From a virus: a DNA stretch of 46,955 bases. The DNA is taken from positions 1 through 46,955 of IMG/VR virus record IMGVR_UViG_3300005593_000004. One strand, written 5' to 3'. The notes beneath the pieces were generated by a model that saw nothing but the letters and a program-made list of their open reading frames with translations, was not told where the DNA came from and ran no database searches. The translations under genes and the position numbers were made by a program. Of the stretch, positions 6,568-21,065 are shown piece after piece (the first letter of the stretch is position 1; the number at the start of each line of letters is the position of its first letter).

Positions 6568-7118
6568 ACTTCTGGGACCTCCAATCTTGTTTGACACTCT
6601 GATGTCAACCAGAGTTGTTTGACGAGGGCGTGTATGGCAAGGGCAGGAATGTCGGCTTCGTCAGCGATCCTGGTGAAGTTGTCTAGGTCGATGATCCACT
6701 TGCCCTTGCCATTCCGGTCCCTACGGACCCGTTCTACGGCTATCAGTTCCCAGATGGGGACGATGAACAGGCGGGGCTGCCGCTGGTCCTCAGGTAGGTG
6801 ATGGTCGTGGACGTTGTCCCGGAGCAGGAAGAACACATGGGGGTACTTGGTGCAGGCCCGTCGAACAGTCAGTTCGTCTATTACGAACAGGTTACGTTCA
6901 GGGATCCCGTCGATCAGGTGCCAGCGTTGGGTGTAGTTCTGGTTCTTCTCCTTGATTTCGACGTAGTAGCCCGGTACCCAGATGTCCAGGTCATCGGTGG
7001 CGTCGAACCGGGTAACAACCGGTACCCCCAGGGACTCTGCCACATACTCCTCGTAATGCCGGGCGTTGGAGAAGTCGTGGACCTTCTGTTCCCGGGTGCG
7101 CTTGTAGGGCTCACTCAT
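6564..7118 (-). CDS. PD-(D/E)XK superfamily nuclease-like protein
   Basis: A 184-aa protein. I chose the ATG at 7118; the longer reading frame upstream is an out-of-frame shadow of the next gene. Near the N-terminus are E23/E24, then DDLDIWVPG (D43, D45) and YVEIKEK (E54, K56). These reproduce the E...D...ExK core of PD-(D/E)XK endonucleases. The remainder is a mixed fold with no second known domain. It overlaps the gene upstream, itself a PD-(D/E)XK candidate, by 8 nt. Two consecutive nucleases suggest a paired role in recombination, branched-DNA resolution or host DNA degradation. The active-site reading is by eye. Confidence 0.6.
   Translation of the reverse strand: MSEPYKRTREQKVHDFSNARHYEEYVAESLGVPVVTRFDATDDLDIWVPGYYVEIKEKNQNYTQRWHLIDGIPERNLFVIDELTVRRACTKYPHVFFLLRDNVHDHHLPEDQRQPRLFIVPIWELIAVERVRRDRNGKGKWIIDLDNFTRIADEADIPALAIHALVKQLWLTSECQTRLEVPEV
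6591..6608. promoter_or_regulatory. Dispersed palindrome TTGAC-N8-GTCAA
   Basis: TTGACACTCTGATGTCAA is a perfect inverted repeat in its 6-bp arms. It lies inside the 3' end of the nuclease gene and just upstream of the 46-aa gene. The centre does not pair, so here it reads better as a DNA operator than as an RNA hairpin. One of sixteen exact TGACA-N6-TGTCA sites in the window. Confidence 0.55.
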
Positions 7119-9500: not shown

Positions 9501-10037
9501 CTAGGAAGAAGAAACGCTGTAACCGGCGGGGATGTCCAGGCCCAGGTTCGAGAACACCCAGTCGGGGGCCCGGGTCATGAACTTGTCCGATTTGATCCAG
9601 AGGCCGATGTTCCAGGTCTTACCGTTGTTGTCTGGTGGGCCCTGGATGGTCTTGTGGCGGAAGTCGGGGCCAGCCGCAGACTTCTTGTCGCCAATGTTGT
9701 TGTGCCAGTTGTCCGGGTTGTTGACCAGAGCGTCTGCCCACTTGGCTTCCTCGTTGGAGGCGGCGTTGATGGGCCCGGCCTGGACCTGTGGCCCCGGCAC
9801 AGGTGCCGGTGCTGGTACTGGTGCTGGTACCGGTGTTGCTCCCGGGAACACCTGGGTCACGACTACCTCAGCCGCAGCAGTGGTAGCCGCAGCGATCCTC
9901 TCCGTGAGATCGTTGTGGACTGTCTCCACCGTGGCCAGGTAGACGTTCGGGTCGGGGTTCCCGCAGCAGATGGAACCTGCCACCTTCGCCGCAACCTGGG
10001 CCACGATTTCGGCCTTTTCTTGGGGACTGTAAGCCAT
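9501..10037 (-). CDS. Two-domain protein with Pro/Ala linker, possibly DNA-associated
   Basis: A 178-aa protein. I chose the ATG at 10037 because AAGGAGGAGCAGCAC precedes it; a longer in-frame extension exists. Residues 1-62 are helical (AEIVAQVAAKVAGS). A low-complexity PVPAPVPAPAPVPGP linker follows at about 70-83. The C-terminal domain (100-170) has NNPDNWHNNIGDKKSAAGPDF and GLWIKSDKFMTRAPDWVF. The C-terminal motif is not one I can name. Sitting between helicase and Cas4-like nuclease genes, it may bind single-stranded DNA or tether a partner (inference). Confidence 0.55.
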   Translation of the reverse strand: MAYSPQEKAEIVAQVAAKVAGSICCGNPDPNVYLATVETVHNDLTERIAAATTAAAEVVVTQVFPGATPVPAPVPAPAPVPGPQVQAGPINAASNEEAKWADALVNNPDNWHNNIGDKKSAAGPDFRHKTIQGPPDNNGKTWNIGLWIKSDKFMTRAPDWVFSNLGLDIPAGYSVSSS

Positions 10038-10050
10038 GTGCTGCTCCTCC

Positions 10051-10956
10051 TTAGGAGTCGGTTGGTTCCAGAGCCACACCGTAAGGGCACTTCAACCAGT
10101 GGTCGCAGAACCTTTCAGTGCAGAGGAACGATGTGGTATTCGGCAGGAAGGTGTTCCCTTCAAGCAACCCAGCAGTCAACTGGGCCTTTGACATCACAGC
10201 GTCAACCTGGGCCACGGTGCGTGGCGCATCTATCCGCTGGAAGTCTCCCTTCCATGAGGCAATGTCGTAAGTAAACGTGACATTGTCGTCCTGGAGGACT
10301 TCTTGCAGGGCTCCGATGTAGAACCCTGGTTGAGGTGTATTGCGGTGGCTTTCCTTGTTCTTCTGCCACTTCTTCTTGGCGCTCTTATGATCGACAATCC
10401 GGTACCAGCCGTCCGGGCCCTGGAGAACCAGGTCGACGGTCCCCTTCCTGGCCCACATGCCTTCCGTATGGGCGGCGTCCGTGAACAAGGGCAGCATCAT
10501 GGACTTCTCCACCATCTTGACCTCGTACTCGTCTGGCCAGACCCGGCCCTGGTCGAAGTAGGCCACGATCAGAGCGGACAGCATGTTCTCAGCCTCGCTG
10601 AGGTCCAGGTCCATGCGCTTCTCACGGGCGGTTTCCTGTTGGAACGTCCAGGAGAAGATTTCCTCGTCGGCGAGGGCGATCTCCCTGCGGAGAGCAGACA
10701 GGGCTTCGGAGACACAGTCGCCCTTGTCGGCCAGGTCGCCGTTCATCCGACAGATGTAGTAGAGGGCCAGGCCTGCGTGGTAGCCGGTGCCCATGGCCCG
10801 GTTGATGTCCGACGTATAGACCCGGTCGGGGTCCTTGGAGTAGGACAGCCTTAGGTGGCAAATCTCAGCGGTGTTGATGTCGGACTGGTGGATCTCCCGT
10901 GGGCGGAACTGGTTCAGTTCGTGGGGGTCTATCAGGCCGGTGGTCTTGGGGGTCAT
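10051..10956 (-). CDS. Cas4/RecB-like exonuclease with probable iron-sulphur cluster
   Basis: A 301-aa protein of the PD-(D/E)XK exonuclease group. It carries C33 (AEICHLRLSY), GTGYH at 56-60, GTVDLVLQG (D175), RIVDHKS (D189, K191) and a Gln in PQPGFY (Q209). A C-terminal FLCTERFCDHWLKCPYG gives C279, C284 and C290. One distant N-terminal cysteine plus three C-terminal ones is the Cas4/AddB arrangement that holds a 4Fe-4S cluster; the C-x4-C-x5-C spacing is slightly wider than usual. It probably processes DNA ends in recombination. No CRISPR array is near. Its ATG overlaps the HTH gene stop (ATGA). Confidence 0.75.
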   Translation of the reverse strand: MTPKTTGLIDPHELNQFRPREIHQSDINTAEICHLRLSYSKDPDRVYTSDINRAMGTGYHAGLALYYICRMNGDLADKGDCVSEALSALRREIALADEEIFSWTFQQETAREKRMDLDLSEAENMLSALIVAYFDQGRVWPDEYEVKMVEKSMMLPLFTDAAHTEGMWARKGTVDLVLQGPDGWYRIVDHKSAKKKWQKNKESHRNTPQPGFYIGALQEVLQDDNVTFTYDIASWKGDFQRIDAPRTVAQVDAVMSKAQLTAGLLEGNTFLPNTTSFLCTERFCDHWLKCPYGVALEPTDS

Positions 10957-11567
10957 GTGCGTACTCTCTGTCCATCGCTGCGGGCCTTGGCTACGGCCCA
11001 GTAGACCTGGTGTGGTTCCAGGTTGAGGTCAGTGGCGATGCGTTTGGCATTGTCGCCCAGGTCGTACCGCCGGATGATCTCTCGTTTCTGTCCCCGGTCG
11101 GTGGAAGGCCGATTCTTGCGGTTGGGTGTGACACCGTGGATGCCGAAGACGTAGTAGACCCAGCCCCGGGTCTTGCCCAGGACCTGGCTGATCTCCTGGG
11201 GGGTGAATCCGTTGATGTGGAGGAGGACGGATGTGGCTTCCTCTGGGCTCCAGCGGGCTTCTTGCCGTACCTGACGTACTGTCTCAGGCGTCACTGACAG
11301 AACCCGGGCGATGTCCTGGGAGGACAATCCGAAGGCCCACAGGTGCCGGACAGCGTCAGAGATTTCCTGCCCGTAGTACCCGGCCAGGCGGGCGTTCTCA
11401 CAGGTACGTTGGACCTTGGGAGCGTTGATCCCGAACCGGTCCAACTGGATGCTCACAGGGGTGACAGAGTGATCCCCCTGGTCAACGCAGTAATCTCGCA
11501 GCAACACAGCGACCCAATCAGGGTCGGGGGCGTTGATGGACTGGGCGAGGGTGGTCTCTGTCTCCAA
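10953..11567 (-). CDS. DNA-binding protein with three helix-turn-helix units; candidate operator-binding regulator
   Basis: A 204-aa protein. Three helix-turn-helix segments can be read: about 80-104 (LSSQDIARVLSVTPETVRQV), 118-142 (FTPQEISQVLGKTRGWVYYV) and 168-196 (LGDNAKRIATDLNLEPHQVY). The start is TTG at 11567, chosen for the strong AGGAGGAAGCC just before it. It is first in the leftward replication operon and behind a noncoding stretch with a palindrome. It is the only clear sequence-specific DNA-binding protein apart from the terminase N-terminus, so it is the best candidate to bind the dispersed TTGAC-N8-GTCAA sites (inference). Confidence 0.65.
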   Translation of the reverse strand: METETTLAQSINAPDPDWVAVLLRDYCVDQGDHSVTPVSIQLDRFGINAPKVQRTCENARLAGYYGQEISDAVRHLWAFGLSSQDIARVLSVTPETVRQVRQEARWSPEEATSVLLHINGFTPQEISQVLGKTRGWVYYVFGIHGVTPNRKNRPSTDRGQKREIIRRYDLGDNAKRIATDLNLEPHQVYWAVAKARSDGQRVRT

Positions 11568-11588
11568 GGCTTCCTCCTGGTCCTGGCA

Positions 11589-11641
11589 GGCTCGCTTTAG
11601 GCGAGCCCTACCTGGTGGCTGGTCAGTGACAGATCAGTATA
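11589..11641 (-). promoter_or_regulatory. Leader of the replication operon: hairpin, imperfect palindrome and -10-like box
   Basis: On the minus strand, TATACT (11641-11636) resembles a -10 box, although no good -35 is seen. CTGGTC-AGTGACA-GATCAG (11619-11637) is a near-perfect palindrome overlapping it. GGCTCGC-CTAAA-GCGAGCC (11607-11589) is a perfect 7-bp hairpin in the 5' leader. Together they look like the regulated start of the operon led by the three-HTH gene. Confidence 0.4.
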
Positions 11642-11669
11642 ACGGGCGTTTTGGGGAAAGTGGTGGACT

Positions 11670-12425
11670 CTAGAACAGGGCTCCCTGAGGATCGTCCTTC
11701 CCTACACCGGGAGCCAGGAGAGCGTCCCAGGTCAGGGCACCTATAACCCCATCGGGTGTTAGCCCTGTCATCCTCTGAAATCTTTTCGCCGCACTGCCTG
11801 TACGCCACCCAAACACACCGTCTGGGGGCCCGGCGTCGAACCCCTTGGCTCCTAACTGACGCTGGGCCACCTCTACCGCCGGGCCCCGGGACCGTCGCCG
11901 GAGAGGCTTCCTGGCGACCTCTTCCCGGAGGCTCCAGACGAAAGCGAGGATGCCCCTGAAGTCGATTTTGGGTGTCGGCGGGTCGGTGAACGCCGGGGCC
12001 GGGAACCAGTCGCTAGCGTCCCTGGGCTGATGGTGCCACCACTCACCCCTCACGGTTGGCCTCAGCCCCATGGTCTGTGCTATCTCGCTGGCCCGCACAG
12101 TTGACAACTTCTTCCTGTTAGTTATGTGGAAGTCGACGGCGTAGCCGTAGCCGTCCCCGGGTTGCTGTTGGTGGAACGAGCCGACGAAGAAGCCGTCGGG
12201 GCGTTTCCAATCGGGATTAGCAGCGAGGTTGAATCCCTTTTTCCCGGCCTTGTAGCCATCGTAGAGTCGCTTTTGTTCTGCGTAGGACCGAACGCCACTG
12301 CTAACAACCATCCGCCCCTGGATCTCCGGGTGCCGGAACAATGCCACTAGCCGGTACTTGAGGGTGGGGTGCAGGAGGTCCACCTGGACCCACTTGCCCT
12401 TGATCGGGATGCCTTCCTTCTCCAT
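11670..12425 (-). CDS. Endolysin: M15 D-Ala-D-Ala peptidase with peptidoglycan-binding domain
   Basis: A 251-aa protein from ATG 12425; a TTG at 12440 would add five residues, and neither has a good ribosome-binding site. The N-terminal VanY/M15 domain has SSGVRSYAEQ (42-51), FHQQQPGDGYGYAVDFH with zinc ligands H85 and D98, and EWWHHQ (E128, H131). The C-terminal PG-binding type 1 domain is at 180-240 (RGPAVEVAQRQLG, then DGVFGWRTGSAAKRFQ, then GLTPDGVIG). It should cleave the peptide stem of the host cell wall after the holin opens the membrane. A second M15 domain is in the virion protein at 37286. Confidence 0.85.
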   Translation of the reverse strand: MEKEGIPIKGKWVQVDLLHPTLKYRLVALFRHPEIQGRMVVSSGVRSYAEQKRLYDGYKAGKKGFNLAANPDWKRPDGFFVGSFHQQQPGDGYGYAVDFHITNRKKLSTVRASEIAQTMGLRPTVRGEWWHHQPRDASDWFPAPAFTDPPTPKIDFRGILAFVWSLREEVARKPLRRRSRGPAVEVAQRQLGAKGFDAGPPDGVFGWRTGSAAKRFQRMTGLTPDGVIGALTWDALLAPGVGKDDPQGALF

Positions 12426-12483
12426 GACCGGCCTACGCAAGAGGATACCGGACCTGACCCTGGGGCCAGACCGGTAAGCCCTT

Positions 12484-12501
12484 TTGACAGATTGGTGTCA
12501 A
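12484..12501. promoter_or_regulatory. Dispersed palindrome upstream of the endolysin
   Basis: TTGACAGATTGGTGTCAA has perfect 6-bp arms and an unpaired centre. It lies 59 bp upstream of the endolysin ATG, in the only intergenic gap before it. On the minus strand TTGACA could also be read as a -35 box, but no clear -10 follows. Placement fits repression of lysis. Confidence 0.55.
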
Positions 12502-12519
12502 GTGGGGGGACGTAGAAAG

Positions 12520-12574
12520 GACCCCGCCCCGGCCTACCAGAGAGGAGGAACTCCTGGTAAGCGGGGACGGGGTC
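12520..12574 (-). ncRNA. Long hairpin with anti-Shine-Dalgarno loop; terminator or small RNA
   Basis: Arms GACCCCG and CGGGGTC, then CCCCG and CGGGG, then CTACCAG and CTGGTAAG (one bulge) make a stem of about 24 bp. On the minus strand it is followed by CCTTTCT, so it may end transcription of the array. The minus-strand loop contains GTTCCTCCTC, the exact complement of GAGGAGGAAC found in the ribosome-binding site of several array genes. A further perfect hairpin (GTAGAG-GCCG-CTCTAC) is nearby at about 12586-12602. Between 12575 and 12655 no gene is seen. Confidence 0.5.
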
Positions 12575-12655
12575 AGGGCAGGGGCCGTAGAGCGGCCTCT
12601 ACCCATGGGACCGACGTACCACCCGGGGGGGAGAAGGTGGAGCGGGTCCCTGGTC

Positions 12656-12859
12656 TCAGGTCCTGATTGTTTCAAGGACCTTGTCGTGTTGTGTGCCATC
12701 ACCAGAACAAACTACCACGGTGCTGGGCAGGCCACGACGATCAAGGGCAGTGTGAAGATCGGAGGCGAGGTCGGATACGACTTGCCTGACGGCCTCAGTC
12801 TCCTGGGCCTGTTGACAGCGAACTGTCAAGATTAGGTCTTCATGTTGCTTGATTCGCAT
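12656..12859 (-). CDS. Small hypothetical protein at the end of the array
   Basis: A 67-aa protein starting at ATG 12859 behind GGAGGAATCCA, 26 nt after the 78-nt tmRNA-like RNA. It has a helical, charged central part (ETEAVRQVVSDLASDLHTAL) and then LPSTVVVCSG. Codons 11-16 overlap one of the dispersed palindromes. It is soluble with no known motif. It is co-directional with the array but lacks the minihelix leader. Confidence 0.5.
   Translation of the reverse strand: MRIKQHEDLILTVRCQQAQETEAVRQVVSDLASDLHTALDRRGLPSTVVVCSGDGTQHDKVLETIRT
12812..12829. promoter_or_regulatory. Dispersed palindrome within the start of a small gene
   Basis: TTGACAGCGAACTGTCAA has perfect 7-bp arms with a 4-nt centre. 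On the minus strand the centre reads TTCG, so a transcript could fold into a stem with a UUCG loop about 30 nt inside the 12656-12859 gene. It could act as a DNA operator, an RNA hairpin or both. Confidence 0.5.
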
Positions 12860-12885
12860 TGGATTCCTCCATCTTCATTAGGGAG

Positions 12886-12963
12886 TGGAGTAGCGGGGAG
12901 TCGAACCCCGGTCCCAGGGAGTCCGCATGCGGTTGTTTCCCTGGTCGAACCCTTTCCTACCCC
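12886..12963 (-). ncRNA. tmRNA-like RNA: tRNA-like domain without a tag-coding domain
   Basis: A 78-nt element. Acceptor GGGGTAG pairs with CTACTCC over 7 bp, with G3 opposite U (the alanine identity wobble), and is followed by discriminator A. The 5' side continues GAAAGGGTTCGAC, matching the tmRNA D-loop signature GGxUUCGAC, and has no D-stem. A 7-bp helix CCAGGGA/TCCCTGG stands where tmRNA helix P2 stands, but it closes on a 17-nt loop instead of pseudoknots and a tag. GGAC and then T-arm CGGGG-TTCGACT-CCCCG match the tmRNA 3' end. CCA is not encoded (CTCCC follows). It could instead be an aberrant tRNA; no ordinary anticodon arm can be drawn. Confidence 0.6.
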
Positions 12964-13013
12964 GTGGCGGGGAGAGAGCAGCGAGCGAATAAACTCTGCT
13001 CCCTCCCCATGAA

Positions 13014-13268
13014 CTAGCCGACTGGCACGCCGCCCTGGCCCGCTTGGTCTGTCCACGATTCAACGAACGCCCGCCCGAACTGGGTCGCAGCGTCATGCTC
13101 AATCATGGTGAAGACCTCACGAACGTAGGCAGCGGCCAGGCCTGGCATGCCGACAAACGCATTGTCGACCAGGTCCTTGGCAGCGTGAAACACCACCGGG
13201 TCGAACCTGACCTCAGACCTGATACGACGTTCTGCCGTAACCAGGCTCTCTAGCGTGGGTGTGGTCAT
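13014..13268 (-). CDS. Small hypothetical protein with its ribosome-binding site in a hairpin loop
   Basis: An 84-aa soluble helical protein (TLESLVTAERRIRSEVRFDPVVFHAAKDLV, read in parts) with no metal or membrane motif; it ends GQGGVPVG. The ATG at 13268 is preceded by CTGACAG-GAGG-CTGTCAA, where the GAGG ribosome-binding site is the loop of a 6-7 bp hairpin. It is the first gene downstream of the membrane protein at 13294. Function unknown. Confidence 0.55.
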   Translation of the reverse strand: MTTPTLESLVTAERRIRSEVRFDPVVFHAAKDLVDNAFVGMPGLAAAYVREVFTMIEHDAATQFGRAFVESWTDQAGQGGVPVG

Positions 13269-13269
13269 G

Positions 13270-13287
13270 TTGACAGCCTCCTGTCAG
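13270..13287 (-). promoter_or_regulatory. Palindrome whose loop is the ribosome-binding site of the 13014-13268 gene
   Basis: On the minus strand CTGACAGGAGGCTGTCAA is followed by C and then ATG. The arms TGACAG and CTGTCA pair and leave GAGG, the Shine-Dalgarno sequence, as the 4-nt loop. A protein that binds this hairpin, or the same DNA palindrome, would control this gene. It has the same arms as the other dispersed sites. Confidence 0.6.
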
Positions 13288-13293
13288 TTGTGG

Positions 13294-13494
13294 TCACTGA
13301 CCAGTGTAGCGTTGTCGCCTGACCCATCCTGGGTCACTCAGGGGCTCTGAGGGCCAGGCAAACGGGTCGTCAAACTTGACGGCCCGACGAGCCTGTTCCT
13401 GGTTGATCTGGTCCCTCCAACACCACAGGTACCCGATTGTGATACAGGTGGTGATGAGGAGCAGCAGGCTGAGGACGTAGACGACCCAAGTCAT
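13294..13494 (-). CDS. Small single-span membrane protein
   Basis: A 66-aa protein. A hydrophobic segment covers about residues 3-26 (WVVYVLSLLLLITTCITIGYLW), then CWRDQINQEQARRAVKFDDPFAW, then a polar basic end. The ATG overlaps the stop of the upstream gene (TGATG), so it depends on the leader of that gene. A membrane-anchored accessory protein; function unknown. Confidence 0.6.
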   Translation of the reverse strand: MTWVVYVLSLLLLITTCITIGYLWCWRDQINQEQARRAVKFDDPFAWPSEPLSDPGWVRRQRYTGQ

Positions 13495-13655
13495 CAGATC
13501 ATCCCCAGGACGAGCAGAGGGCTCTCCTCACCGTCCGGGGACGTACCGTCATATTCGACACGGTGCCCGTTCGGAGAGATGAGAACTGCATCGTTTTCGA
13601 CGGTCCAGCCCTCAAACCCTTCGCTGTTGAAAAGTTCCTGGAATGCTTGTTCCAT
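13494..13655 (-). CDS. 53-aa acidic protein of the cassette array
   Basis: Below the size of most ORF lists and in a different frame from a longer shadow. The ATG at 13655 follows CGAGGAGGAAATCC, the array ribosome-binding site. The product begins MEQAFQELFNSEGFEGWTV and continues with a small beta region (AVLISPNGHRVEYDG). It shares the full leader type, so it counts as a cassette gene. The stop overlaps the next start. Function unknown. Confidence 0.65.
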   Translation of the reverse strand: MEQAFQELFNSEGFEGWTVENDAVLISPNGHRVEYDGTSPDGEESPLLVLGMI

Positions 13656-13686: not shown

Positions 13687-13749
13687 TTGACACGGTCGTG
13701 TCAGTCGTCCCTGCCTGGGGGTCGAACCCAGGTCCCTGCCAGTCAGGGG
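13687..13749 (-). ncRNA. Array leader element a: T-arm minihelix plus palindrome
   Basis: Minus strand: P1 CCCTG/CAGGG encloses a T-arm-like hairpin CCTGGG-TTCGACC-CCCAGG, whose loop is a perfect tRNA T-loop. CGA follows, and then the palindrome CTGACAC-GACC-GTGTCAA (13704-13687). It leads the 13494-13655 gene. The segment before the T-arm (ACTGGCAGGGA) could also pair with P1. Confidence 0.65.
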
Positions 13750-13755
13750 TATTAC

Positions 13756-14085
13756 TCAGCCCTCAGCACGACGCTCGTTGAACTCATGCTCAAGTTCTTC
13801 GGCCATCTGCTCAGGGGACCCGTAGGCCCAGCCGCCGTGACCGCCCTCACACTCCCAGCCCTTGGTCCCTGACGGGGCCACCTTTACGGTGATCGGGGCA
13901 CCACACCTTTCTGGATGGTGGGTGTCCCAGGGCCCGTCTGGTTCGGGGTGGGGGACGAGAACGATCATGCTGCAGCCGTTGCGGGCCGATTCTTCGGCCT
14001 GGTCTGCTGCCATGTTGTCGGCTTCGACCTCTGCCCGGTGCTTCTTGCAGCACAGTGGCCAGCGGTCGATGTCGCAGTTACTCAT
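13756..14085 (-). CDS. Cys/His-containing small protein of the array
   Basis: A 109-aa protein. Cysteines C4, C12 and C13, then ERCGAPITV and WECEGGHGGW, suggest metal binding. The central HPEPDGPWDTHHPERCG is His-rich. The C-terminus is acidic and helical (SPEQMAEELEHEFNER). It starts at ATG 14085 behind CGAGGAGGAACCAC. Similar Cys-containing small proteins with a GCPxxV-like core occur in actinophages (from memory). Function unknown. Confidence 0.6.
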   Translation of the reverse strand: MSNCDIDRWPLCCKKHRAEVEADNMAADQAEESARNGCSMIVLVPHPEPDGPWDTHHPERCGAPITVKVAPSGTKGWECEGGHGGWAYGSPEQMAEELEHEFNERRAEG

Positions 14086-14104
14086 GTGGTTCCTCCTCGC
14101 TAGA

Positions 14105-14167
14105 TTGACACGGTCGTGTCAGTCGTCCCTGTCCAGGGCTCGCACCTGGATGCCTGCTAGTCAGGGG
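14105..14167 (-). ncRNA. Array leader element b
   Basis: Minus strand: P1 CCCTG/CAGGG, T-arm-like TCCAGG-TGCGAGC-CCTGGA, CGA, then palindrome CTGACAC-GACC-GTGTCAA (14122-14105). The stem sequence differs from element a by paired changes. It leads the 13756-14085 gene; the ribosome-binding site CGAGGAGGAACCAC follows. Confidence 0.65.
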
Positions 14168-14175
14168 TTCTCCCG

Positions 14176-14682
14176 TCAGGCCGAATACACCATCGGTGTG
14201 CCCTGCTGGGTCGGGAGACCAGTATTGGGGTTCAGGTGCTTCTCCTGCCACCAGAAAGGCATGTCCCGGGGGGCCAGGCCCTCCGGGTAGTCCTCAGTGG
14301 TGAGCCCCATGTAGCGGTCCACGATGCCGTCGATAACAGCCTCCTTCCAGACCTTCACGGAATGGTTGTAGGCAGCAGGGGTCACCTCGCCCCGAACGAA
14401 TGTTTCGTAGTCCGGTGCGGGGGTCCGGTCCATGATCTTCATAACCGTCCAAGTCAAAGCGAACTTGGTTCCATGGTTCGGCAACCCCAGGCGCTCCATG
14501 ACGTAGGTGTAGGTCTCAGACTGAACTGGGACCTTGGTCTTCGCCGCCCCTGAGAGGGGCCCTGGGAAGTCGTTGGGGTGCAGAAGGGACAGCAACCCCT
14601 TGACCAGGGTCCTCAGGACACCCCGATCAACTGTGATCGTGATGTCGGGTCCGGCCGTGGATGTTTCTGGTATTACGCTCAT
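14176..14682 (-). CDS. Hypothetical array protein, 168 aa
   Basis: I start it at ATG 14682, directly after CGAGGAGGAATGCAAA; the longer frame runs through the leader and is not supported. After a short polar N-terminus comes DITITVDRGVLRTLVKGLLSLL, then an alpha-rich body with TYVMERLGLPNHGTKFALTW, YETFVRGEVTPAAYNHSVKVW and MPFWWQEKHLNPNTGLP. It is soluble, with no catalytic motif I recognise. It is one of the two larger proteins in the array. Confidence 0.6.
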   Translation of the reverse strand: MSVIPETSTAGPDITITVDRGVLRTLVKGLLSLLHPNDFPGPLSGAAKTKVPVQSETYTYVMERLGLPNHGTKFALTWTVMKIMDRTPAPDYETFVRGEVTPAAYNHSVKVWKEAVIDGIVDRYMGLTTEDYPEGLAPRDMPFWWQEKHLNPNTGLPTQQGTPMVYSA

Positions 14683-14711
14683 TTTGCATTCCTCCTCGTT
14701 GGTGTTGCTAA

Positions 14712-14774
14712 CTGACACGGTCGTGTCAATCGTCCCCGCCAGGGCCTTGCACCCTGGTGGCTGCTAGTCGGGGG
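14712..14774 (-). ncRNA. Array leader element c
   Basis: Minus strand: P1 CCCCG/CGGGG (covaries with CCCTG/CAGGG elsewhere), T-arm-like CCAGGG-TGCAAGG-CCCTGG, CGA, palindrome TTGACAC-GACC-GTGTCAG (14729-14712). It leads the 14176-14682 gene. Confidence 0.65.
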
Positions 14775-14782
14775 TGGGCGGG

Positions 14783-15145
14783 TCAGCCCTTGCGCTGAAT
14801 CTTCGTGATCCTGGACCGGATGTCTCCAGCCCATGGCATGGATGACACCAGGAGCGGTGGCCCGTCTTCCAGGACGCAGAACGTCCGCACTGAGGCACCC
14901 TTGATGTGGGTGTGAGTCGGGTGGGGGCCGGAGCAGTTGACTGCGGTCCGACCGTCCGGGTCGACCTCTGCTGATTGGAACACCCACCAGCCTCGCTTGC
15001 CTCTGATCCTGAACCTGGTCCCAGGCTCCAGGGGGTACCGGAAGCCCGGGACCTTGACCTGGTCCGGGTACTGGTAACCCTGCGCCAGGCGGGCTGCCTT
15101 GCGGGCTACCTGCTGGCGGCGGATCTCGTTGGTTGCTTTACTCAT
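14783..15145 (-). CDS. Small beta-barrel-like array protein
   Basis: A 120-aa protein. A basic helical N-terminus (NEIRRQQVARKAARLAQG) precedes a beta-rich core with PGTRFRIRGKRGWWVFQSAEVDPDGR, resembling small SH3-like barrel proteins common in actinophages. The C-terminus is basic (SRITKIQRKG), so nucleic acid binding is possible (inference). It starts at ATG 15145 behind CGAGGAGGAACCAC. Confidence 0.6.
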   Translation of the reverse strand: MSKATNEIRRQQVARKAARLAQGYQYPDQVKVPGFRYPLEPGTRFRIRGKRGWWVFQSAEVDPDGRTAVNCSGPHPTHTHIKGASVRTFCVLEDGPPLLVSSMPWAGDIRSRITKIQRKG

Positions 15146-15164
15146 GTGGTTCCTCCTCGCTTGA

Positions 15165-15235
15165 TTGACACGGTTGTGTCAGTCGTCCCCAGCCAGGTCT
15201 CGCTCCTGGTGCCAGCCCTGGGCTGGTCTGAGGGG
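15165..15235 (-). ncRNA. Array leader element d (with central hairpin)
   Basis: Minus strand: P1 CCCC(TC)AG/CTGGGG with a 2-nt bulge, a strong extra hairpin CCAGCC-CAG-GGCTGG, then T-arm-like CCAGG-AGCGAGA-CCTGG, CGA and the palindrome CTGACAC-AACC-GTGTCAA (15182-15165). The extra hairpin stands where a tRNA anticodon arm would be. It leads the 14783-15145 gene. Confidence 0.6.
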
Positions 15236-15239
15236 TGGT

Positions 15240-15596
15240 TCAGTCCACCGTGCCGCCTGTTGGAGGCAGTGTCGGTGATCCCAACCAGTCGGGTGTGGAT
15301 TCGGCTAGCGAAACCGCCAGCGTCCTGGCCTGCTGTGGGCTCAGGTACAGCGTCACACCCACATCGCCGCCGATGTCGACGGCAACGAACGGACTGCTGT
15401 TGTCGAAGTACCTGGTCGTGATCTCAGCCGGGTCGCTGTGCAGCATGTCGGCATGAATGTCGACTGTTGCAAAGCCATCAGAGCGGTCGTCGGGCGCAAA
15501 GTCGTTGACATGGGCAACCCAGGTGTCAGCCCGGACCCGTGTGTTCTTGAACCCGTTGCTGTTGCGACGCTTGTACTCCACCGTTGTGTTACTCAT
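15240..15596 (-). CDS. Array protein, paralogue of the 16509-16856 product
   Basis: A 118-aa protein that lines up with the 115-aa protein at 16509-16856. Shared positions are N-terminal MSxNTTVxYxRRxxxGxKNxxV, a DGxFAxVxIHA core, PFxxxxIGxxV and LxLSPxQAxTL near the end. The beta-rich composition and the conserved hydrophobic ends suggest a small folded domain. The family is not recognised. The two copies are three genes apart, with the same leader type, so duplication came with or into the cassette format. Confidence 0.65.
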   Translation of the reverse strand: MSNTTVEYKRRNSNGFKNTRVRADTWVAHVNDFAPDDRSDGFATVDIHADMLHSDPAEITTRYFDNSSPFVAVDIGGDVGVTLYLSPQQARTLAVSLAESTPDWLGSPTLPPTGGTVD

Positions 15597-15624
15597 TGTT
15601 GGTTCCTCCTCGTTGGTATTGCTG

Positions 15625-15687
15625 TTGACAGGGTTCTGTCAATCGTCCCTGCTCCGGGCTTGCACCGGAGAGCCTGCTAGTCAGGGG
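15625..15687 (-). ncRNA. Array leader element e
   Basis: Minus strand: P1 CCCTG/CAGGG, T-arm-like CTCCGG-TGCAAGC-CCGGAG (a fully changed but still paired stem), CGA, palindrome TTGACAG-AACC-CTGTCAA (15642-15625). It leads the 15240-15596 gene with CGAGGAGGAACCAACA before the ATG. Confidence 0.65.
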
Positions 15688-15694
15688 GGTGTGG

Positions 15695-16024
15695 TCAGCG
15701 GCCACGCCCGATCAGAGCGTCACCAACGGACCTGGCCACCACATGCAGTTCGCTGTCTGCACTGAAGGGGCCCATTTCGTTGACGTACCGGCCCTCCAGG
15801 CTCTCAGTGACCAGCCACCAGATCGGTGTTGGTACCATGTCACGAAGTCCGCTGGTCTCTGCGACCTCCAGGACCGTGTGCGCTGGAATCCAGTGGTCCT
15901 GCGGACCGACCTGGAACCCGGCTGGCGGGGTGGTGCGGTTGTGGCCCGGCACTCCCAGGCCACAGATGATGTCGCCTACCTGGACCGTGGATGCCTTGAC
16001 CGTAATGATTTCTTTCATACCCAT
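15695..16024 (-). CDS. Hypothetical array protein, 109 aa
   Basis: The start at ATG 16024 follows CGAGGAGGAATCAA; a second ATG at 16018 is possible. The sequence begins MGMKEIITVKASTVQVGDII, a beta start often seen in small barrel proteins, then GHNRTTPPAGFQVGP, then an alpha/beta remainder ending VVARSVGDALIGRGR. No metal or catalytic motif. Function unknown. Confidence 0.6.
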   Translation of the reverse strand: MGMKEIITVKASTVQVGDIICGLGVPGHNRTTPPAGFQVGPQDHWIPAHTVLEVAETSGLRDMVPTPIWWLVTESLEGRYVNEMGPFSADSELHVVARSVGDALIGRGR

Positions 16025-16050
16025 TTGATTCCTCCTCGTTGGCATTGCTG

Positions 16051-16119
16051 TTGACAGGGTTCTGTCAATCGTCCCTGCCCCGGGGTTGAACCGGTGGCCC
16101 TGGCCTAGCCAGTCAGGGA
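16051..16119 (-). ncRNA. Array leader element f
   Basis: Minus strand: P1 TCCCTG/CAGGGA (6 bp), central hairpin CTGGC-TAG-GCCAG, T-arm-like CACCGG-TTCAACC-CCGGGG with one A-G mismatch and a perfect T-loop, CGA, palindrome TTGACAG-AACC-CTGTCAA (16068-16051). It leads the 15695-16024 gene. Confidence 0.6.
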
Positions 16120-16135
16120 TTTGATGTGGGTTAGA

Positions 16136-16399
16136 TCAGAGGTAAATCTCCCCGGTGCCATCCCACTCTGAATACGCCTGGAAGGCGAACTCAGTAGCGA
16201 GGTCGTCACGGGTGATTTCGTTCAGCGTGTAGGGCTCCCAGGCGACGCCGTTCACCTCGCCCTGGAAGGAGCCCCGGCTTGCGTTGAACTCCTCCAGCCA
16301 GGTGATGAGCGGCTGCTGGACACCGTCGATTTCGACCCGAACGCCTGCATGGCCTTCCGGTGAGATCGGGGTGTACCGAACGGTTGCGTTGATCCTCAT
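16136..16399 (-). CDS. Hypothetical array protein, 87 aa
   Basis: The start at ATG 16399 follows CGAGGAGGAATACAGAC; the longer overlapping frame is a shadow of the gene upstream. The protein begins RINATVRYTPISPEGHAGV and reads as a small alpha/beta domain with ITWLEEFNAS and a conserved-looking acidic C-terminus (SEWDGTGEIYL). Soluble, no motif recognised. Confidence 0.6.
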   Translation of the reverse strand: MRINATVRYTPISPEGHAGVRVEIDGVQQPLITWLEEFNASRGSFQGEVNGVAWEPYTLNEITRDDLATEFAFQAYSEWDGTGEIYL

Positions 16400-16428
16400 G
16401 TCTGTATTCCTCCTCGTTGGTATTGCGG

Positions 16429-16498
16429 TTGACAGGGTTCTGTCAATCGTCCCCAGCCCGGTCGTGATCCGGGTGCCAGCCCTGGGCTGGTCTGGGGG
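16429..16498 (-). ncRNA. Array leader element g
   Basis: Minus strand: P1 CCCCAG/CTGGGG, central hairpin CCAGCC-CAG-GGCTGG, T-arm-like CCCGG-ATCACGA-CCGGG, CGA, palindrome TTGACAG-AACC-CTGTCAA (16446-16429). The loop keeps C at position 3 and a purine at 4 but has C, not A, at 5. It leads the 16136-16399 gene. Confidence 0.6.
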
Positions 16499-16508
16499 TG
16501 GTCGCCGG

Positions 16509-16856
16509 TCAGCGAATGATGCGCTGGCCGTCAACCGACTCGCTGTCCAGAGCCCGCTCCAGGAGACCCAAGAGGGTCTCGGCCTGGTCCGGGGAGAGGA
16601 ACAGCGAGGACGAAACGCCGGTGCCAATGTTGATGGTGTAGAACGGCTGGTACTTGTCGTCGCCGTGATCCGTGACGCTGAGGACAGCGTCACCGTTGTG
16701 GGTCCTTGCGTGGATGCTGACAGAAGCGAAAGAACCGTCGACCTCGTCGCTGCGCTTCTCGTCCATGTTTACCCGGTACTCGTCATTGACGACGGTGACG
16801 TTCTTCCAGCCCTTCGCTGTGCGACGGCCGTACTTCACTGTTGTGTTCTTGCTCAT
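16509..16856 (-). CDS. Array protein, paralogue of the 15240-15596 product
   Basis: A 115-aa protein, clearly related to the 118-aa product of 15240-15596 over its whole length (MSKNTTVKYGRRTAKGWKN, then VDGSFASVSIHA, then LFLSPDQAETLLGLL). The more acidic C-terminus differs. The ATG at 16856 follows CGAGGAGGAACCAC. No family is recognised. The duplication within one array suggests either diversified partners or dosage. Confidence 0.65.
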   Translation of the reverse strand: MSKNTTVKYGRRTAKGWKNVTVVNDEYRVNMDEKRSDEVDGSFASVSIHARTHNGDAVLSVTDHGDDKYQPFYTINIGTGVSSSLFLSPDQAETLLGLLERALDSESVDGQRIIR

Positions 16857-16875
16857 GTGGTTCCTCCTCGTTGTG

Positions 16876-16938
16876 TTGACAGGGTTCTGTCAATCGTCCC
16901 TGCCTGGGGCTCGCACCCAGGAGCATGCTGTTCAGGGG
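16876..16938 (-). ncRNA. Array leader element h
   Basis: Minus strand: P1 CCCTG/CAGGG, a short AGC-AT-GCT element, T-arm-like CCTGGG-TGCGAGC-CCCAGG, CGA, palindrome TTGACAG-AACC-CTGTCAA (16893-16876). Only 8 nt separate it from GAGGAGG, too little room for a promoter -10 box plus a leader. It leads the 16509-16856 gene. Confidence 0.65.
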
Positions 16939-16944
16939 TGGGGC

Positions 16945-17781
16945 TCAGGCCCCGTCGTTGCTGTCCGCCCAGGTGGGTGGGTAGTGGTCCCAGAAGTCCA
17001 CCTGGTCGCCGTCTTCGGTCGACCAGAAGCCGTCTTCGACACTGTCGTCGGCACCCAGGTGGAAGTACCAGAGGGTGTCTGGACACTGTTCGCCGTCCCT
17101 GGGGAGCCGTCGGTACTGGCCCTCACAGCGGCCACAGACCAGCGGGGCAACTACGCCCCACTGAACATGGCCGAACGTGATCTCACGGCAACCGCATCCG
17201 GTGAGGATGCGCTTGGGCCCAGGTGTGATCGTTCCGTTCCTCCGTTGGCCTTTGCAGACCTTGAGAGTGCGGAGCCAAATCAGCCTGGTCGTGTACTGAA
17301 GGATGGTCTCGTCAGAGAGCCTGACAGCGGAGTAGCCGATGGTCGTGTCCGGCGGGTATGGGAACCCACTGAACAGACCCAACTGCTCGTCCACCAGGGT
17401 CGGCCATTCAAGACCGACCTCTTCTGCCAGGGCCTTGAACCGCTTGTTGTGATACCGGTTCTGCCTGGAGCAGTCCTTGATCTTCCGTGCATGGGCCAGC
17501 CCGTGGGCTGCCTCATGGAGGAGGGTCTGGAGGACCTGCTCCGCACCTCCGGCAAAGCATTCACCGGAGATCATCACTTCGGGTGCCTGGGTGTCATCCA
17601 CTGCCCACTCAGAGTAGGAGTAATGACCCAGGACCGTTCCTCTGCGGACCCGGCCCGTCGACTTGACGACCAGGAACACATCGGGAACGTCCGGGTGGTT
17701 GGCCTGGATGGCCCGCCAGGTGTCATTGAGCACCTTGGTGGTGACATCAGAGACCTGGACGTTGGTGTGTTTGTTGTGCAT
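16945..17781 (-). CDS. SprT-like zinc metallopeptidase
   Basis: A 278-aa protein. TLLHEAAHGLAHAR contains HEAAH (89-93). A downstream YHNKRF (H111 region) is the usual partner motif of SprT-like/minigluzincin phage proteins. A C-terminal zinc ribbon has CGC at about 196-198 and CGRC at 216-219. In cells, SprT-like enzymes cut DNA-bound proteins; in phages this family is common and its target is usually unknown. It may clear proteins from phage or host DNA (inference). It is the largest array gene. The start at 17781 lies behind CGAGGAGGAACC. Confidence 0.75.
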   Translation of the reverse strand: MHNKHTNVQVSDVTTKVLNDTWRAIQANHPDVPDVFLVVKSTGRVRRGTVLGHYSYSEWAVDDTQAPEVMISGECFAGGAEQVLQTLLHEAAHGLAHARKIKDCSRQNRYHNKRFKALAEEVGLEWPTLVDEQLGLFSGFPYPPDTTIGYSAVRLSDETILQYTTRLIWLRTLKVCKGQRRNGTITPGPKRILTGCGCREITFGHVQWGVVAPLVCGRCEGQYRRLPRDGEQCPDTLWYFHLGADDSVEDGFWSTEDGDQVDFWDHYPPTWADSNDGA

Positions 17782-17797
17782 GGTTCCTCCTCGTTGG

Positions 17798-17866
17798 TTG
17801 ACACGGGTGTGTCAATCGTCCCTGCCCTGGTCGTGATCCAGGGTGCCCGGCTGGCCGGGTCAGGGG
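17798..17866 (-). ncRNA. Array leader element i
   Basis: Minus strand: P1 CCCTG/CAGGG, central hairpin CCCGGC-CA-GCCGGG, T-arm-like CCCTGG-ATCACGA-CCAGGG, CGA, palindrome TTGACAC-ACCC-GTGTCAA (17815-17798). Its T-arm loop equals that of element g although the stems differ. It leads the SprT-like gene. Confidence 0.65.
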
Positions 17867-17878
17867 TGTGGATGTGGG

Positions 17879-18001
17879 TCAGGCAGAAACCAGCCCAAAC
17901 ACCGGTAGTGCCCCAACCAACTCCTTTGCGTACCGGATGATGTCTGGCTGGTTGACCAGCACCCAGGCGGTGGTCGCTGCAACGCACTCGTTCATACTCA
18001 T
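17879..18001 (-). CDS. 40-aa protein at the head of the array
   Basis: The ATG at 18001 follows ACGAGGAGGAAGCA, the array ribosome-binding site. The product begins MSMNECVAATTAWVLVNQPD and ends in a hydrophobic stretch (LVGALPVFGLVSA) that may touch membrane. Unlike the other array genes it has no T-arm minihelix; a hammerhead-like fold precedes it and includes its ribosome-binding site. Function unknown. Confidence 0.55.
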   Translation of the reverse strand: MSMNECVAATTAWVLVNQPDIIRYAKELVGALPVFGLVSA

Positions 18002-18006
18002 TGCTT

Positions 18007-18072
18007 CCTCCTCGTTTCTTGAGCCCCAGCGGGGACTCTCATCAGGCTGTTCATTCAGCGACGAGGAGGAGG
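18007..18072 (-). ncRNA. Hammerhead-ribozyme-like element over the ribosome-binding site of the first array gene
   Basis: Minus strand, 5' to 3': stem III CCTCCTCGTC ending in cleavage triplet GUC (after 18060). Stem I is GCTG-AATGAA-CAGC. Core CTGATGA is at 18045-18039. Stem II is GAGTCCC-CGCT-GGGGCTC. Then AA, then GAAAC (18018-18014), then stem III GAGGAGG. Stem III pairs over about 10 bp including U16.1-A15.1. This is the hammerhead layout with stem III open. The two extra A before GAAAC depart from the consensus and may weaken or abolish cleavage. The stem III 3' strand is the ribosome-binding site of the 17879-18001 gene. Confidence 0.55.
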
Positions 18073-19181: not shown

Positions 19182-21065
19182 GTGAGCAACTATTCCAAGT
19201 GGTCTAAGCACCGCCGCTTTGAGGCGGCCGTCAAGCGTGTCATTGACGAGGGGTGGACCCAGACGGAGGCTTCCAAGGAGTACGGGGTTTCCCGGCAGCA
19301 CCTGAACAAGAAGGTGAAGATCGCCCGGGAGGAGCGGGACGCCCAGGTGGATGCTGCTAAGGCCCGTATCAACATTTCACCGTTGGGCCTGAACGAGAAG
19401 CGCCGGGTCGGGACCTTTGAGGAGTTCGACCAGCGGTACTTCGGGCATTGGATTTGCCCCGACTGCGACGAGCACCATGAGATGCCGGACTTTCATCGGG
19501 ACATGGCGGAGGCCTGCCACAGCGACGCCCACCGGGTGCTGATCAACCTTCCCCCGTATCACTCCAAGTCCACGAACGTCACGGTGAAGGACACCATCTA
19601 TTCGCTGGTGAAGAACCCGAACCTTCGGACACTGATCGTGTCGAAGTCTTTGCCGTTCGCCCGGACGTTCCTGCATTCGATCAACGAACTGTTATGCAAC
19701 CCGGACCTGTACGAGGGGGCCGGGGGCAACCTGATTGAAGACTGGGGGCCGTTCAAGCCGGAGGGGTCGCAGTCGGCGTGGAACCAGGAAGCGATCTATG
19801 TCGCTGGCCGCCAAACCGCTGAGAAGGACCCGACCGTTCAGGTGTTGGGTGTTGGCGCTCAGATTTATGGCCGTCGTGCCGACGTTATCAAGTTTGACGA
19901 TGTGGCCACCTTGGACAACCAACGCAACCCCGACCGGGTGGCGGGCATGCTGGAGTGGATCGACAAGGAGGCCTTGTCCCGAATCGGGAAGAAGGGCAAG
20001 GCGATCTGGGTCGGAACGAGGGTGTCGCCCGGCGACATCTATTCGACGTTGTCCATCAGGCCGGGCTACAGGGTGTTGCGGTATTCCTGCATCCAGGACG
20101 ACACGAACGAGAAGGTTCTGTGGCCGGACCATTTCCCGTATGACCAGGCGCTGATCCACCGGTCAGAAATGCGGCCCGCTGACTTCCAGTTGGTGTACCA
20201 GAACGTCGACATCCCCGGCCTGGGGGCGTCGTTCACCCAGGAAATGTTGGATGTGTGCAAAGACACCTCTCGCACGATTGGGCACTACGAGTCCGATTGG
20301 CGGCTGATCGCCGGTTTGGACCCGGCGGGCGGAAACAAGGATTCGGGATATACCGCCTTTTCGCTGATTGGCGTGGATCTGAAGACCGGGAAGCGTTTCC
20401 TGGTTGACCAGGTAGCGGTCAAGTCGATGAAAGCCCCCCAAATGAAGGATCAGATCATTTCGTGGACTGAGAGGTATCCGCTGTTTGAGTGGAGGGTGGA
20501 GAACAACGGGTTGCAGTCCCAGTTGGTGCAATACAACACGGAGATCATCCAATACCTCGCCAAGAAAGGGGTCCGGGTCGTACCGCACACCACGCACAAG
20601 AATAAGTGGGACCCCCAGTTCGGCGTGGAGTCCCTGGCCCCGCTGATGACAGCGGAGATGTTCTCCATCCCGTGGGGTAACGCCCCTACCTGTAAGATGT
20701 TCCAACCAGTGATTGAGGAGTTCGTCGCTTTCCCCATGGGGATGCTTTCTGACAGAGTTATGTCAACTTGGTTTGCGGACCTGGGGTGCCGGGACCTGCT
20801 GGACCGGGCTCACCTTCCTCTGTTCAACGAGCGGATGAAGGTCCCGGCCCGTGTCCGTCGCCGTCGACACATTGTCGATTTCCAGGGACAAGGCGTTCGG
20901 AGGGTCGAAATGAGAGACCAGCGGGCAGGTCACATGACCCGTGGCCAGTGGGGCTACCGCCGGTCGACCCTGTCCACGCCGGTGCCTCACGCTGAGGTTG
21001 AGGAGCATGAGGAGGACCGGGGCCCGGAGTTCGTCAACGTCGAAGGCTTCGTGTCGGATCGGTGA
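19182..21065 (+). CDS. Terminase large subunit with N-terminal helix-turn-helix
   Basis: A 627-aa protein. Residues 1-55 carry a helix-turn-helix (GWTQTEASKEYGVSRQHLNKK) resembling a small-terminase DNA-binding domain fused to the large subunit. The ATPase follows: LPPYHSKST (123-131) is the modified Walker A, and DVIKFDD (234-240) is Walker B. The nuclease begins GLDPAGGNKDSG (D380), with VENNGLQSQL further on. CPDC at 92-95 may bind zinc. It packages DNA and cuts it. GTG 19182 is the first possible start (in-frame TAG 12 nt upstream), with a poor ribosome-binding site. No separate small subunit is seen. Confidence 0.85.
   Translation: MSNYSKWSKHRRFEAAVKRVIDEGWTQTEASKEYGVSRQHLNKKVKIAREERDAQVDAAKARINISPLGLNEKRRVGTFEEFDQRYFGHWICPDCDEHHEMPDFHRDMAEACHSDAHRVLINLPPYHSKSTNVTVKDTIYSLVKNPNLRTLIVSKSLPFARTFLHSINELLCNPDLYEGAGGNLIEDWGPFKPEGSQSAWNQEAIYVAGRQTAEKDPTVQVLGVGAQIYGRRADVIKFDDVATLDNQRNPDRVAGMLEWIDKEALSRIGKKGKAIWVGTRVSPGDIYSTLSIRPGYRVLRYSCIQDDTNEKVLWPDHFPYDQALIHRSEMRPADFQLVYQNVDIPGLGASFTQEMLDVCKDTSRTIGHYESDWRLIAGLDPAGGNKDSGYTAFSLIGVDLKTGKRFLVDQVAVKSMKAPQMKDQIISWTERYPLFEWRVENNGLQSQLVQYNTEIIQYLAKKGVRVVPHTTHKNKWDPQFGVESLAPLMTAEMFSIPWGNAPTCKMFQPVIEEFVAFPMGMLSDRVMSTWFADLGCRDLLDRAHLPLFNERMKVPARVRRRRHIVDFQGQGVRRVEMRDQRAGHMTRGQWGYRRSTLSTPVPHAEVEEHEEDRGPEFVNVEGFVSDR
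20749..20766. promoter_or_regulatory. Dispersed palindrome inside the terminase gene
   Basis: CTGACA-GAGTTA-TGTCAA is an exact TGACA-N6-TGTCA site within coding sequence. The centre does not pair. An intragenic site of this kind could stop transcription if bound by a repressor, as stoperators do in some actinophages (established for other phages; inference here). Confidence 0.45.

Follow-up and report, generated by a model that had tools for sequence, protein, structure and literature searches.

Arrays of a tRNA-like RNA element ahead of small phage genes and their proposed role as cut marks in polycistronic messages

In plant mitochondria, tRNA-like sequences known as t-elements lie at gene ends, and RNase P, RNase Z, and the CCA enzyme are reported to act on them (PMC11658184). 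Arrays of hammerhead ribozymes in prophages flank single genes, and it has been suggested that they cut prophage transcripts apart (Perreault et al. 2011, PMC3088659). RNase P also has substrates other than tRNA, including the C4 RNA of phages P1 and P7, the his operon mRNA, and turnip yellow mosaic virus (TYMV) RNA (PMC11143913). The orphan RNA family DUF2693-FD (RF02926) serves in PMC9756865 only as a folding example. In cluster K mycobacteriophages, many small genes have repeats just upstream, namely the 13-bp DNA sequence SAS and the inverted repeat ESAS, 17 bp long (PMC3203893). Here, we describe an array of nine tRNA-like elements in the IMG/VR virus record IMGVR_UViG_3300005593_000004 (46,955 bp, ~60% GC), the whole of which is referred to as the window. 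The elements (a to i) lie on the minus strand at positions 13687 to 17866, with one in the leader of each of nine small genes. Modeling of the element and comparison with related loci suggest, with a probability of about two in three, that they are cut sites which split a polycistronic message into single-gene mRNAs.

Structure and distribution of the tRNA-like element

All nine elements begin 6 to 17 nt past the preceding stop codon, and the distance from the tail to the next ATG is 34 to 49 nt. From 5' to 3' on the RNA, each consists of the 5' strand of the closing stem P1 (5 or 6 nt), an A-N-Y-R-G strand, a T-arm with a stem of 6 (or 5) bp and a 7-nt loop, the 3' strand of P1, a tail, and a hairpin, which is followed by ACGAGGAGGAA and then ATG. 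The copy number, strand, place, and order of parts given in a preliminary description of this DNA all agree with the present analysis. The P1 and T-stem pairs also change in step as described there, but the 5 + 6 division holds for only seven copies; c and f have a 6-bp P1 and a 5-bp T-stem, and the sum is constant at 11. The tRNA-like minihelix with a T-arm proposed there is strongly supported, but its "spacer" begins with the A-N-Y-R-G strand, a D-loop-like feature that had been overlooked and that sometimes includes a small hairpin.

The pattern GGGACGAYTGACAN(4-8)TGTCA matches nine sites in the record, each on the minus strand, and the reversed pattern matches none; no further copies with the tail-palindrome pattern occur elsewhere in the whole record. 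Under strict criteria (P1 of 5 bp, T-stem of 6 bp, loop of 7 nt with C at position 3 and a purine at position 4, and tail AC), five copies were found on the minus strand, none on the plus strand, and none in 20 shuffles. Covariance-model matches in the window are confined to the array, where the two copies of the 6 + 5 type score too low for listing.

A pattern scan of IMG/VR yielded 28 stretches, most of the related loci being fragments. The scan pattern fixed parts of the tail and palindrome, a bias that was countered by an RNA covariance model and by a terminase-based fetch. The element was recognized in most of the 28 stretches, in both high-GC (~60%) and low-GC (~42%) phages, and an alignment was made of 53 distinct copies, drawn from the window and from IMG/VR phages related to it (42 to 63% GC). 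The covariance model, built from 36 copies, gave 151 matches at E values of up to 1 across the loci. At E ≤ 0.001 it was positive in 19 of the 21 other virus records, and 65 unrelated genome loci totaling 494 kb gave no matches. Homologous arrays, whose absence elsewhere would have told against the preliminary description, are present in about 20 other virus records. The terminase fetch added loci L165 and L167, with new P1 pairs (GGGCT/AGCTC, GGGTG/CACTC, and GCTCTG/CAGAGC, read by eye). The terminases of the window and locus L025 are 86% identical despite the GC gap, which indicates that the high-GC and low-GC sets are one phage group. The contrast between ~60% GC in the window and ~43% in L025 points to an unusually fast GC change or a host switch within this group. 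The nearest named phages by terminase are Streptomyces phages, with identities of 27 to 31%; one of them, FlowerPower, contains no convincing element.

It is near certain that the element folds as a structured RNA. All five P1 pairs are standard in every one of the 53 distinct copies, among which there are 12 types of P1 and 21 types of T-stem. Under a tree-based null of 60 simulations, in which substitutions were reassigned along the FastTree/Fitch history, none reached the values of five T-stem pairs, three P1 pairs, and the seventh pair of the tail hairpin; this null is our own short version of such a test rather than R-scape. In a MAFFT alignment of 36 copies, 95 double-changed cells were counted versus 21 in shuffles, and the covariation score was 0.595 versus 0.146 for shuffled and 0.05 to 0.17 for slid alignments. 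The covariation, proposed earlier as a check, therefore goes far beyond shared ancestry. The initial parser required pairing, and a pairing-free check used 74 distinct palindromes with ACNN in front. Full 6-bp T-stem hairpins were found at offset 0 from the tail in 49 cases and at each of twelve other offsets in 0 or 1, and loop position 3 was C in 63 of 63, which the check did not require.

The RNA imitates the elbow of tRNA, with a short acceptor stem, a D-loop-like strand, a T-arm, and the tail ACGA. The T-loop bases that had been likened to those of tRNA in the nine copies hold throughout the family, the equivalents of C56 and R57 being present in 53/53 copies and that of A58 in 47/53. Three column pairs outside the stems scored high in the null test. 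One of them is the equivalent of the 18-55 contact, formed by the base before the invariant G of A-N-Y-R-G and loop position 2, and it exceeds all 60 simulations; high-GC copies that lack a central hairpin have either G.U (6 copies) or A.G (16 copies) here and never a mixture of the two. The other two may follow lineage. The G19 and C56 equivalents are invariant (53/53), and, because the 18-55 equivalent covaries as well, the D-loop/T-loop contacts read by tRNA-processing enzymes are retained. No anticodon arm is visible, the 10- to 19-nt gap between P1 and the T-arm holding at most a short hairpin, and the element does not have the form of a decoding tRNA. Plain tRNA and transfer-messenger RNA (tmRNA) genes were considered and rejected; ARAGORN found neither in the window, and where it called tRNA-Pyl/Gln in L018, L023, and L042, the calls overlap with elements.

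The 4-nt tail is ACGA in 45, ACGC in 5, and ACTA in 3 of the 53 copies. P1 and the T-stem together make 11 bp in most copies and 12 positions in two low-GC copies. The nucleotide at position -1 of P1 is C in 75/85 contexts, and a hairpin lies immediately upstream of P1 in 39/85, compared with 15% in shuffles; several of these hairpins take in the stop codon.

The tail hairpin in the window is always the palindrome TTGACA-N6-TGTCAA. Across the family, a hairpin lies 0 to 2 nt past the tail in 83/85 contexts versus 7% of shuffles, and 20 of these 83 are not classed as the usual palindrome. Palindrome-free copies detected with the RNA model have unrelated hairpins (TCCAAC AGATA GTTGGA, TTCAGC AAATA GCTGAA, and CCTGGCC ACCA GGCCAGG). 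A hairpin is thus wanted after the tail, with the operator sequence being one way of supplying it. The seventh palindrome pair is complementary in 36/36 distinct array forms versus 11/35 outside the array; a few of the forms counted had been observed in both orientations, and loci L047 to L050 were fetched with a pattern favoring G or C at that position. The palindrome had been described as part of the element, which holds for the tail hairpin, but it also occurs outside the array without the conserved seventh pair and is therefore partly a separate feature. It probably acts as an operator too. Over the whole window, its exact form occurs nine times compared with an expectation of 0.01. Outside the array it was observed at positions 6591, 8116, 12484, 12812, and 13270, among others, and in all related loci. 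At 13270 to 13287 on the minus strand, and also in L021, L031, and L048, the form CTGACAGGAGGCTGTCAACATG is a palindrome next to the ATG, with the ribosome-binding site in its loop. A 204-aa (amino acid) protein encoded at 10953 to 11567, with several helix-turn-helix matches, is a candidate binder of the palindrome.

Hammerheads and other modules at gene boundaries

Locus L030 (63% GC) has type II hammerheads in most gaps of an array of the same kind (9995 to 13416, minus strand). Rfam searches, which covered the loci other than L166, L171, and L172, gave eight RF02276 matches in L030 with scores of 28 to 51 bits, six of them above the cut-off. The seven hammerheads that were parsed are of type II, with the canonical core CUGANGA...GAAA, stems I to III, and in each case a possible loop-tail pseudoknot. 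Two of the other gaps of L030 contain the tRNA-like element, and a tmRNA-like domain occupies one more. Homologous genes are preceded by the tRNA-like element in the window (14682 and 14085) and by a hammerhead in L030 (10450 and 13027). Members of the MFMFG family likewise differ in what precedes them: a hammerhead in L030, a hammerhead-like leader in L040, and the tRNA-like element in both L039 and L043. Runs of type II hammerheads between small genes were also found in L161, L162, L164, L166, and L175.

The first gene of the window array has a hammerhead-like leader, with a predicted cut after GTC at 18060/18059 and a stem III whose 3' strand is the ribosome-binding site. Such a leader precedes the first gene in the window and in many relatives, though the first gene belongs to different families, and in most of these leaders stem III is built with the ribosome-binding site. 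The stems vary in step around the core (stem I, GCTG/CAGC, CCTG/CAGG, CCCG/CGGG, and TGTG/CACA; stems II and III have variants too). When the first-gene family of the window is not in first place, as in L040, it has a tRNA-like element. Because the hammerhead-like leader tracks the first place and the L040 homologue switches, the type of module follows position, not gene.

In addition, a tmRNA-like domain that has no tag-coding region lies between two genes of the window and occurs in L012, L013, L018, L021, L022, L028, L030, L031, L035, L039, and L042. It has a G3.U70-type pair (GGGGTAG/CTACTCC in the window and GGGGCAG/CTGCTCC in L030), and its acceptor and T-stem make 12 bp by inspection. 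In L030 it shares the layout of the element, being followed by ACGA, a hairpin, the ribosome-binding site, and ATG.

Several other structures were observed at gene boundaries. In L162, a repeated structured element with no Rfam match lies on the minus strand near 3590, 3265, 2015, 1560, and 1255. It has a 3-bp helix, seemingly varying in step (GGG/CCC, GGA/TCC, GCA/TGC, and GAG/CTC), around a hairpin, followed by a second hairpin and the ribosome-binding site, and it is possibly a new cut module or ribozyme. A degenerate full-length tRNA-like sequence is present in L161 at 1643 to 1712 on the minus strand (Rfam tRNA, 26.4 bits, below the cut-off; not called by ARAGORN); downstream of it come GCGA, a hairpin, and then the ribosome-binding site. 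In Bacteroides phage BS-TP2 (L192), a tRNA-Arg(gcg)-like sequence at 6979 to 7061, outside the record's feature table, lies directly before a small gene, is followed by ACGA, and is near a genuine DUF2693-FD RNA (6001 to 6048). Similar punctuation may exist in unrelated phages.

The coordinates of the window features are given in Table 1. The run of small minus-strand genes lies upstream of the terminase gene (19182 to 21065). Other products of the window include portal-like, DnaB-like helicase, primase-like, RecB-type nuclease, and endolysin-like proteins, the last with a peptidoglycan-binding domain.

Table 1. Features of the array and its surroundings in the window
Feature	Position	Strand	Details
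Hammerhead-like motif before first gene	18006..18070	-	Stem III TCCTCCTCG/CGAGGAGGA, stem I GCTG/CAGC, CTGATGA, stem II, AA-GAAA
First array gene	17879..18001	-	40 aa; no tRNA-like element, hammerhead-like leader
Element a	17816..17865	-	P1 CCCTG/CAGGG, T-loop ATCACGA, tail ACGA, central hairpin
Tail hairpin of a	17798..17815	-	TTGACAC ACCC GTGTCAA, also operator-like palindrome
Array gene	16945..17781	-	278 aa; weak SprT-like match slightly below Pfam cut-off
Element b	16894..16937	-	P1 CCCTG/CAGGG, T-loop TGCGAGC; 64.6 bits (RNA model)
Tail hairpin of b	16876..16893	-	
Array gene	16509..16856	-	115 aa
Element c	16447..16497	-	6 + 5 type, P1 CCCCAG/CTGGGG, T-loop ATCACGA
Tail hairpin of c	16429..16446	-	
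Array gene	16136..16399	-	87 aa
Element d	16069..16118	-	P1 CCCTG/CAGGG, T-loop TTCAACC, central hairpin
Tail hairpin of d	16051..16068	-	
Array gene	15695..16024	-	109 aa
Element e	15643..15686	-	P1 CCCTG/CAGGG, T-loop TGCAAGC
Tail hairpin of e	15625..15642	-	
Array gene	15240..15596	-	118 aa; paralogue of 16509-16856
Element f	15183..15233	-	6 + 5 type, P1 CCTCAG/CTGGGG, T-loop AGCGAGA; sub-threshold RF02926 match
Tail hairpin of f	15165..15182	-	
Array gene	14783..15145	-	120 aa
Element g	14730..14773	-	P1 CCCCG/CGGGG, T-loop TGCAAGG
Tail hairpin of g	14712..14729	-	
Array gene	14176..14682	-	168 aa; L030 homologue has type II hammerhead ahead of it
Element h	14123..14166	-	P1 CCCTG/CAGGG, T-loop TGCGAGC; 65 bits (RNA model)
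Tail hairpin of h	14105..14122	-	
Array gene	13756..14085	-	109 aa; L030 homologue has type II hammerhead ahead of it
Element i	13705..13748	-	P1 CCCTG/CAGGG, T-loop TTCGACC
Tail hairpin of i	13687..13704	-	
Array gene	13494..13655	-	53 aa
tmRNA-like tRNA domain	12883..12963	-	No tag-coding region; between genes 13014-13268 and 12656-12859

Proposed function and alternatives

In the proposed mechanism, the array would be transcribed as one long message, and each intercistronic gap would fold into a small tRNA elbow and acceptor end, with P1 and the T-stem stacked coaxially over 11 bp, the T-loop docked on the D-loop-like strand, and the ACGA tail single-stranded. Host enzymes would recognize this fold, with RNase P cutting 5' of P1 and/or RNase Z cutting past the first tail base. 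The downstream message would then start at or very near the hairpin and would go on with the ribosome-binding site and a single gene. For the first gene, it is the hammerhead-like motif that would trim the leader, and in some relatives hammerheads take the place of the tRNA-like elements. Cutting is likely, and it is the most economical shared function because hammerheads occupy equivalent places and cutting is the one sure property of a self-cleaving ribozyme. The cutter is probably host RNase P and/or RNase Z, since the searches of window proteins recognized no RNA-binding or RNA-processing family. The presumed benefit would be that each gene has a stability or dosage of its own.

Minihelices made of acceptor stem and T-arm are a precedent for this mechanism, being substrates of RNase P, which recognizes the T-stem and loop and has a 12-bp ruler (PMC11143913). 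RNase Z cleaves past the discriminator, and CCA hinders it; the tail here is ACGA, not ACCA. Either or both of the enzymes are plausible. Several observations weigh against the mechanism. Most copies of the element offer 11 bp to the RNase P ruler. None of the 53 copies has a 3' RCCA, with which bacterial RNase P RNA pairs; the tails are ACGA, ACGC, or ACTA. The tail hairpin lies 3 nt beyond the predicted RNase Z site and could hinder that enzyme. The host, and hence its RNase P and RNase Z, was not identified by a search of 85,000 genomes with the tail-palindrome pattern, which returned 65 mostly single matches, none with the RNA model. The folding of single copies is moderate (z scores of -0.8 to -3.5), as is usual for short elements of this kind, and two of the 85 contexts have no tail hairpin. 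A hammerhead in place of the element ahead of a homologue of a window gene was seen only in L030. The hammerhead-like motif of the window departs from the canonical core by an AA inserted before GAAA, an insertion common to most high-GC relatives, and has no Rfam match; it may be inactive.

The preliminary description had offered processing, protection of each message, and protein binding as possible jobs. Processing is now the best supported of these, as hammerheads stand in for the element in relatives, and the other two rank lower. Structured leaders commonly stabilize mRNA, and the hairpins after the tail and upstream of P1 would suit a structure that stays uncut in the message and shields its gene from nucleases or neighboring structure. 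Such shielding accounts neither for self-cleaving hammerheads in equivalent places nor for the retained tRNA elbow contacts, where simple hairpins would be enough, and we regard it as rather unlikely. Proteins that bind T-loops are also common, and the invariant loop and tail bases, together with the nearby ribosome-binding site, are what might be expected of a site bound by a protein of the phage or the host, such as a translation regulator that binds tRNA, to set the translation of each gene. That explanation is unlikely, as the element is tied to boundary position rather than gene family, ribozymes could not replace a protein site, and the window proteins searched included no recognizable RNA-binding or RNA-processing family to supply the binder.

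Readings at the DNA level fare less well. An operator or stoperator, a start-associated repeat, or a recombination site for cassette shuffling would fit the occurrence of the palindrome at many other sites without the RNA element, from which a DNA-binding role in addition is probable, and recombination within repeats would fit the presence of the same element variants ahead of different genes. Nevertheless, the covariation of P1, the T-stem, and the tertiary contact and the conservation of the seventh palindrome pair in the array require RNA folding, and replacement by hammerheads is a fact at the RNA level, which makes a purely DNA-level element very unlikely. The published SAS consensus is not enriched (2 found versus 1.9 expected), a test for GGGATAGGAGCCC before the starts was negative, and an L5-type stoperator consensus is not in excess. 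Independent promoters or attenuators for each gene are extremely unlikely. TTGACA is the sigma-70 -35 consensus, but no -10 box was found at the right distance (1 promoter-like site versus 1.1 expected), the low-GC copies leave no room because the ribosome-binding site lies a few bases past the palindrome, and TTGACA-free copies exist. Within the array, neither promoters nor terminators were in excess in a simple scan.

A wider form of the cut-site proposal is that phage RNA is punctuated generally, each cistron boundary of an operon carrying one of several exchangeable cut modules, so that single-gene mRNAs with structured 5' ends result. The modules would be the minimal tRNA-like element, the tmRNA-like domain, the degenerate full tRNA, the type II hammerhead, the hammerhead-like leader over the ribosome-binding site, and the L162 element, with DUF2693-FD as one more. 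We consider the chances of this joint claim to be evenly balanced.

Comparison with known systems

If the proposal is true, a small natural tRNA-like part might serve to separate genes in a bacterial operon, and the natural swap of tRNA mimic and ribozyme at equivalent boundaries makes cutting the likely shared job, which is directly testable. In the open-licence literature, we found no account of tRNA-like punctuation of phage mRNA, nor any phage array where ribozymes and a minimal mimic of tRNA replace one another. The earlier statement that no such cis element is known was nevertheless too strong, since RF02926 has the same shape, t-elements already perform the task proposed here, and hammerhead arrays that may split phage messages have been on record since 2011 (PMC3088659).

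DUF2693-FD is the closest known RNA. Like the elements, it has a closing stem, a D-like hairpin, a 5-bp T-stem, and a 7-nt loop; its loop AGCGAGA is identical to that of element f, and alignments over its full length (1 to 49) in L161 and element f preserve this structure. RF02926 scores are 33.6 bits (E = 3e-8) in L161, 33.4 bits in G025, and 21.2 bits in element f. All matches in these phages fall below the 44.5-bit gathering score and are not assigned to the family. In Bacteroides phage BS-TP2, a copy scoring 75 bits lacks the ACGA tail and is ~280 nt upstream of the next annotated gene. If the proposal holds, it offers a function for this orphan family. SAS and ESAS, by their position before small phage genes, are superficial analogues. 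The non-tRNA substrates of RNase P are tRNA-like or processed RNAs (PMC11143913), but they are single sites, whereas here each gene has its mark, with an altered 3' tail.

The t-elements do the job proposed here but derive from tRNA genes; unlike them, the window elements are minimal, have no anticodon arm, and stand in arrays in viruses of bacteria. The prophage hammerhead arrays are matched by the type II hammerheads at such boundaries in L030, L161, L162, L164, and L175; unlike those ribozymes, the window elements are not self-cleaving RNAs of a known class and copy tRNA instead. Message processing at tRNAs is known from organelles, and the prophage hammerhead arrays have awaited a function since 2011; if the cut-site proposal is true, these phages join the two.

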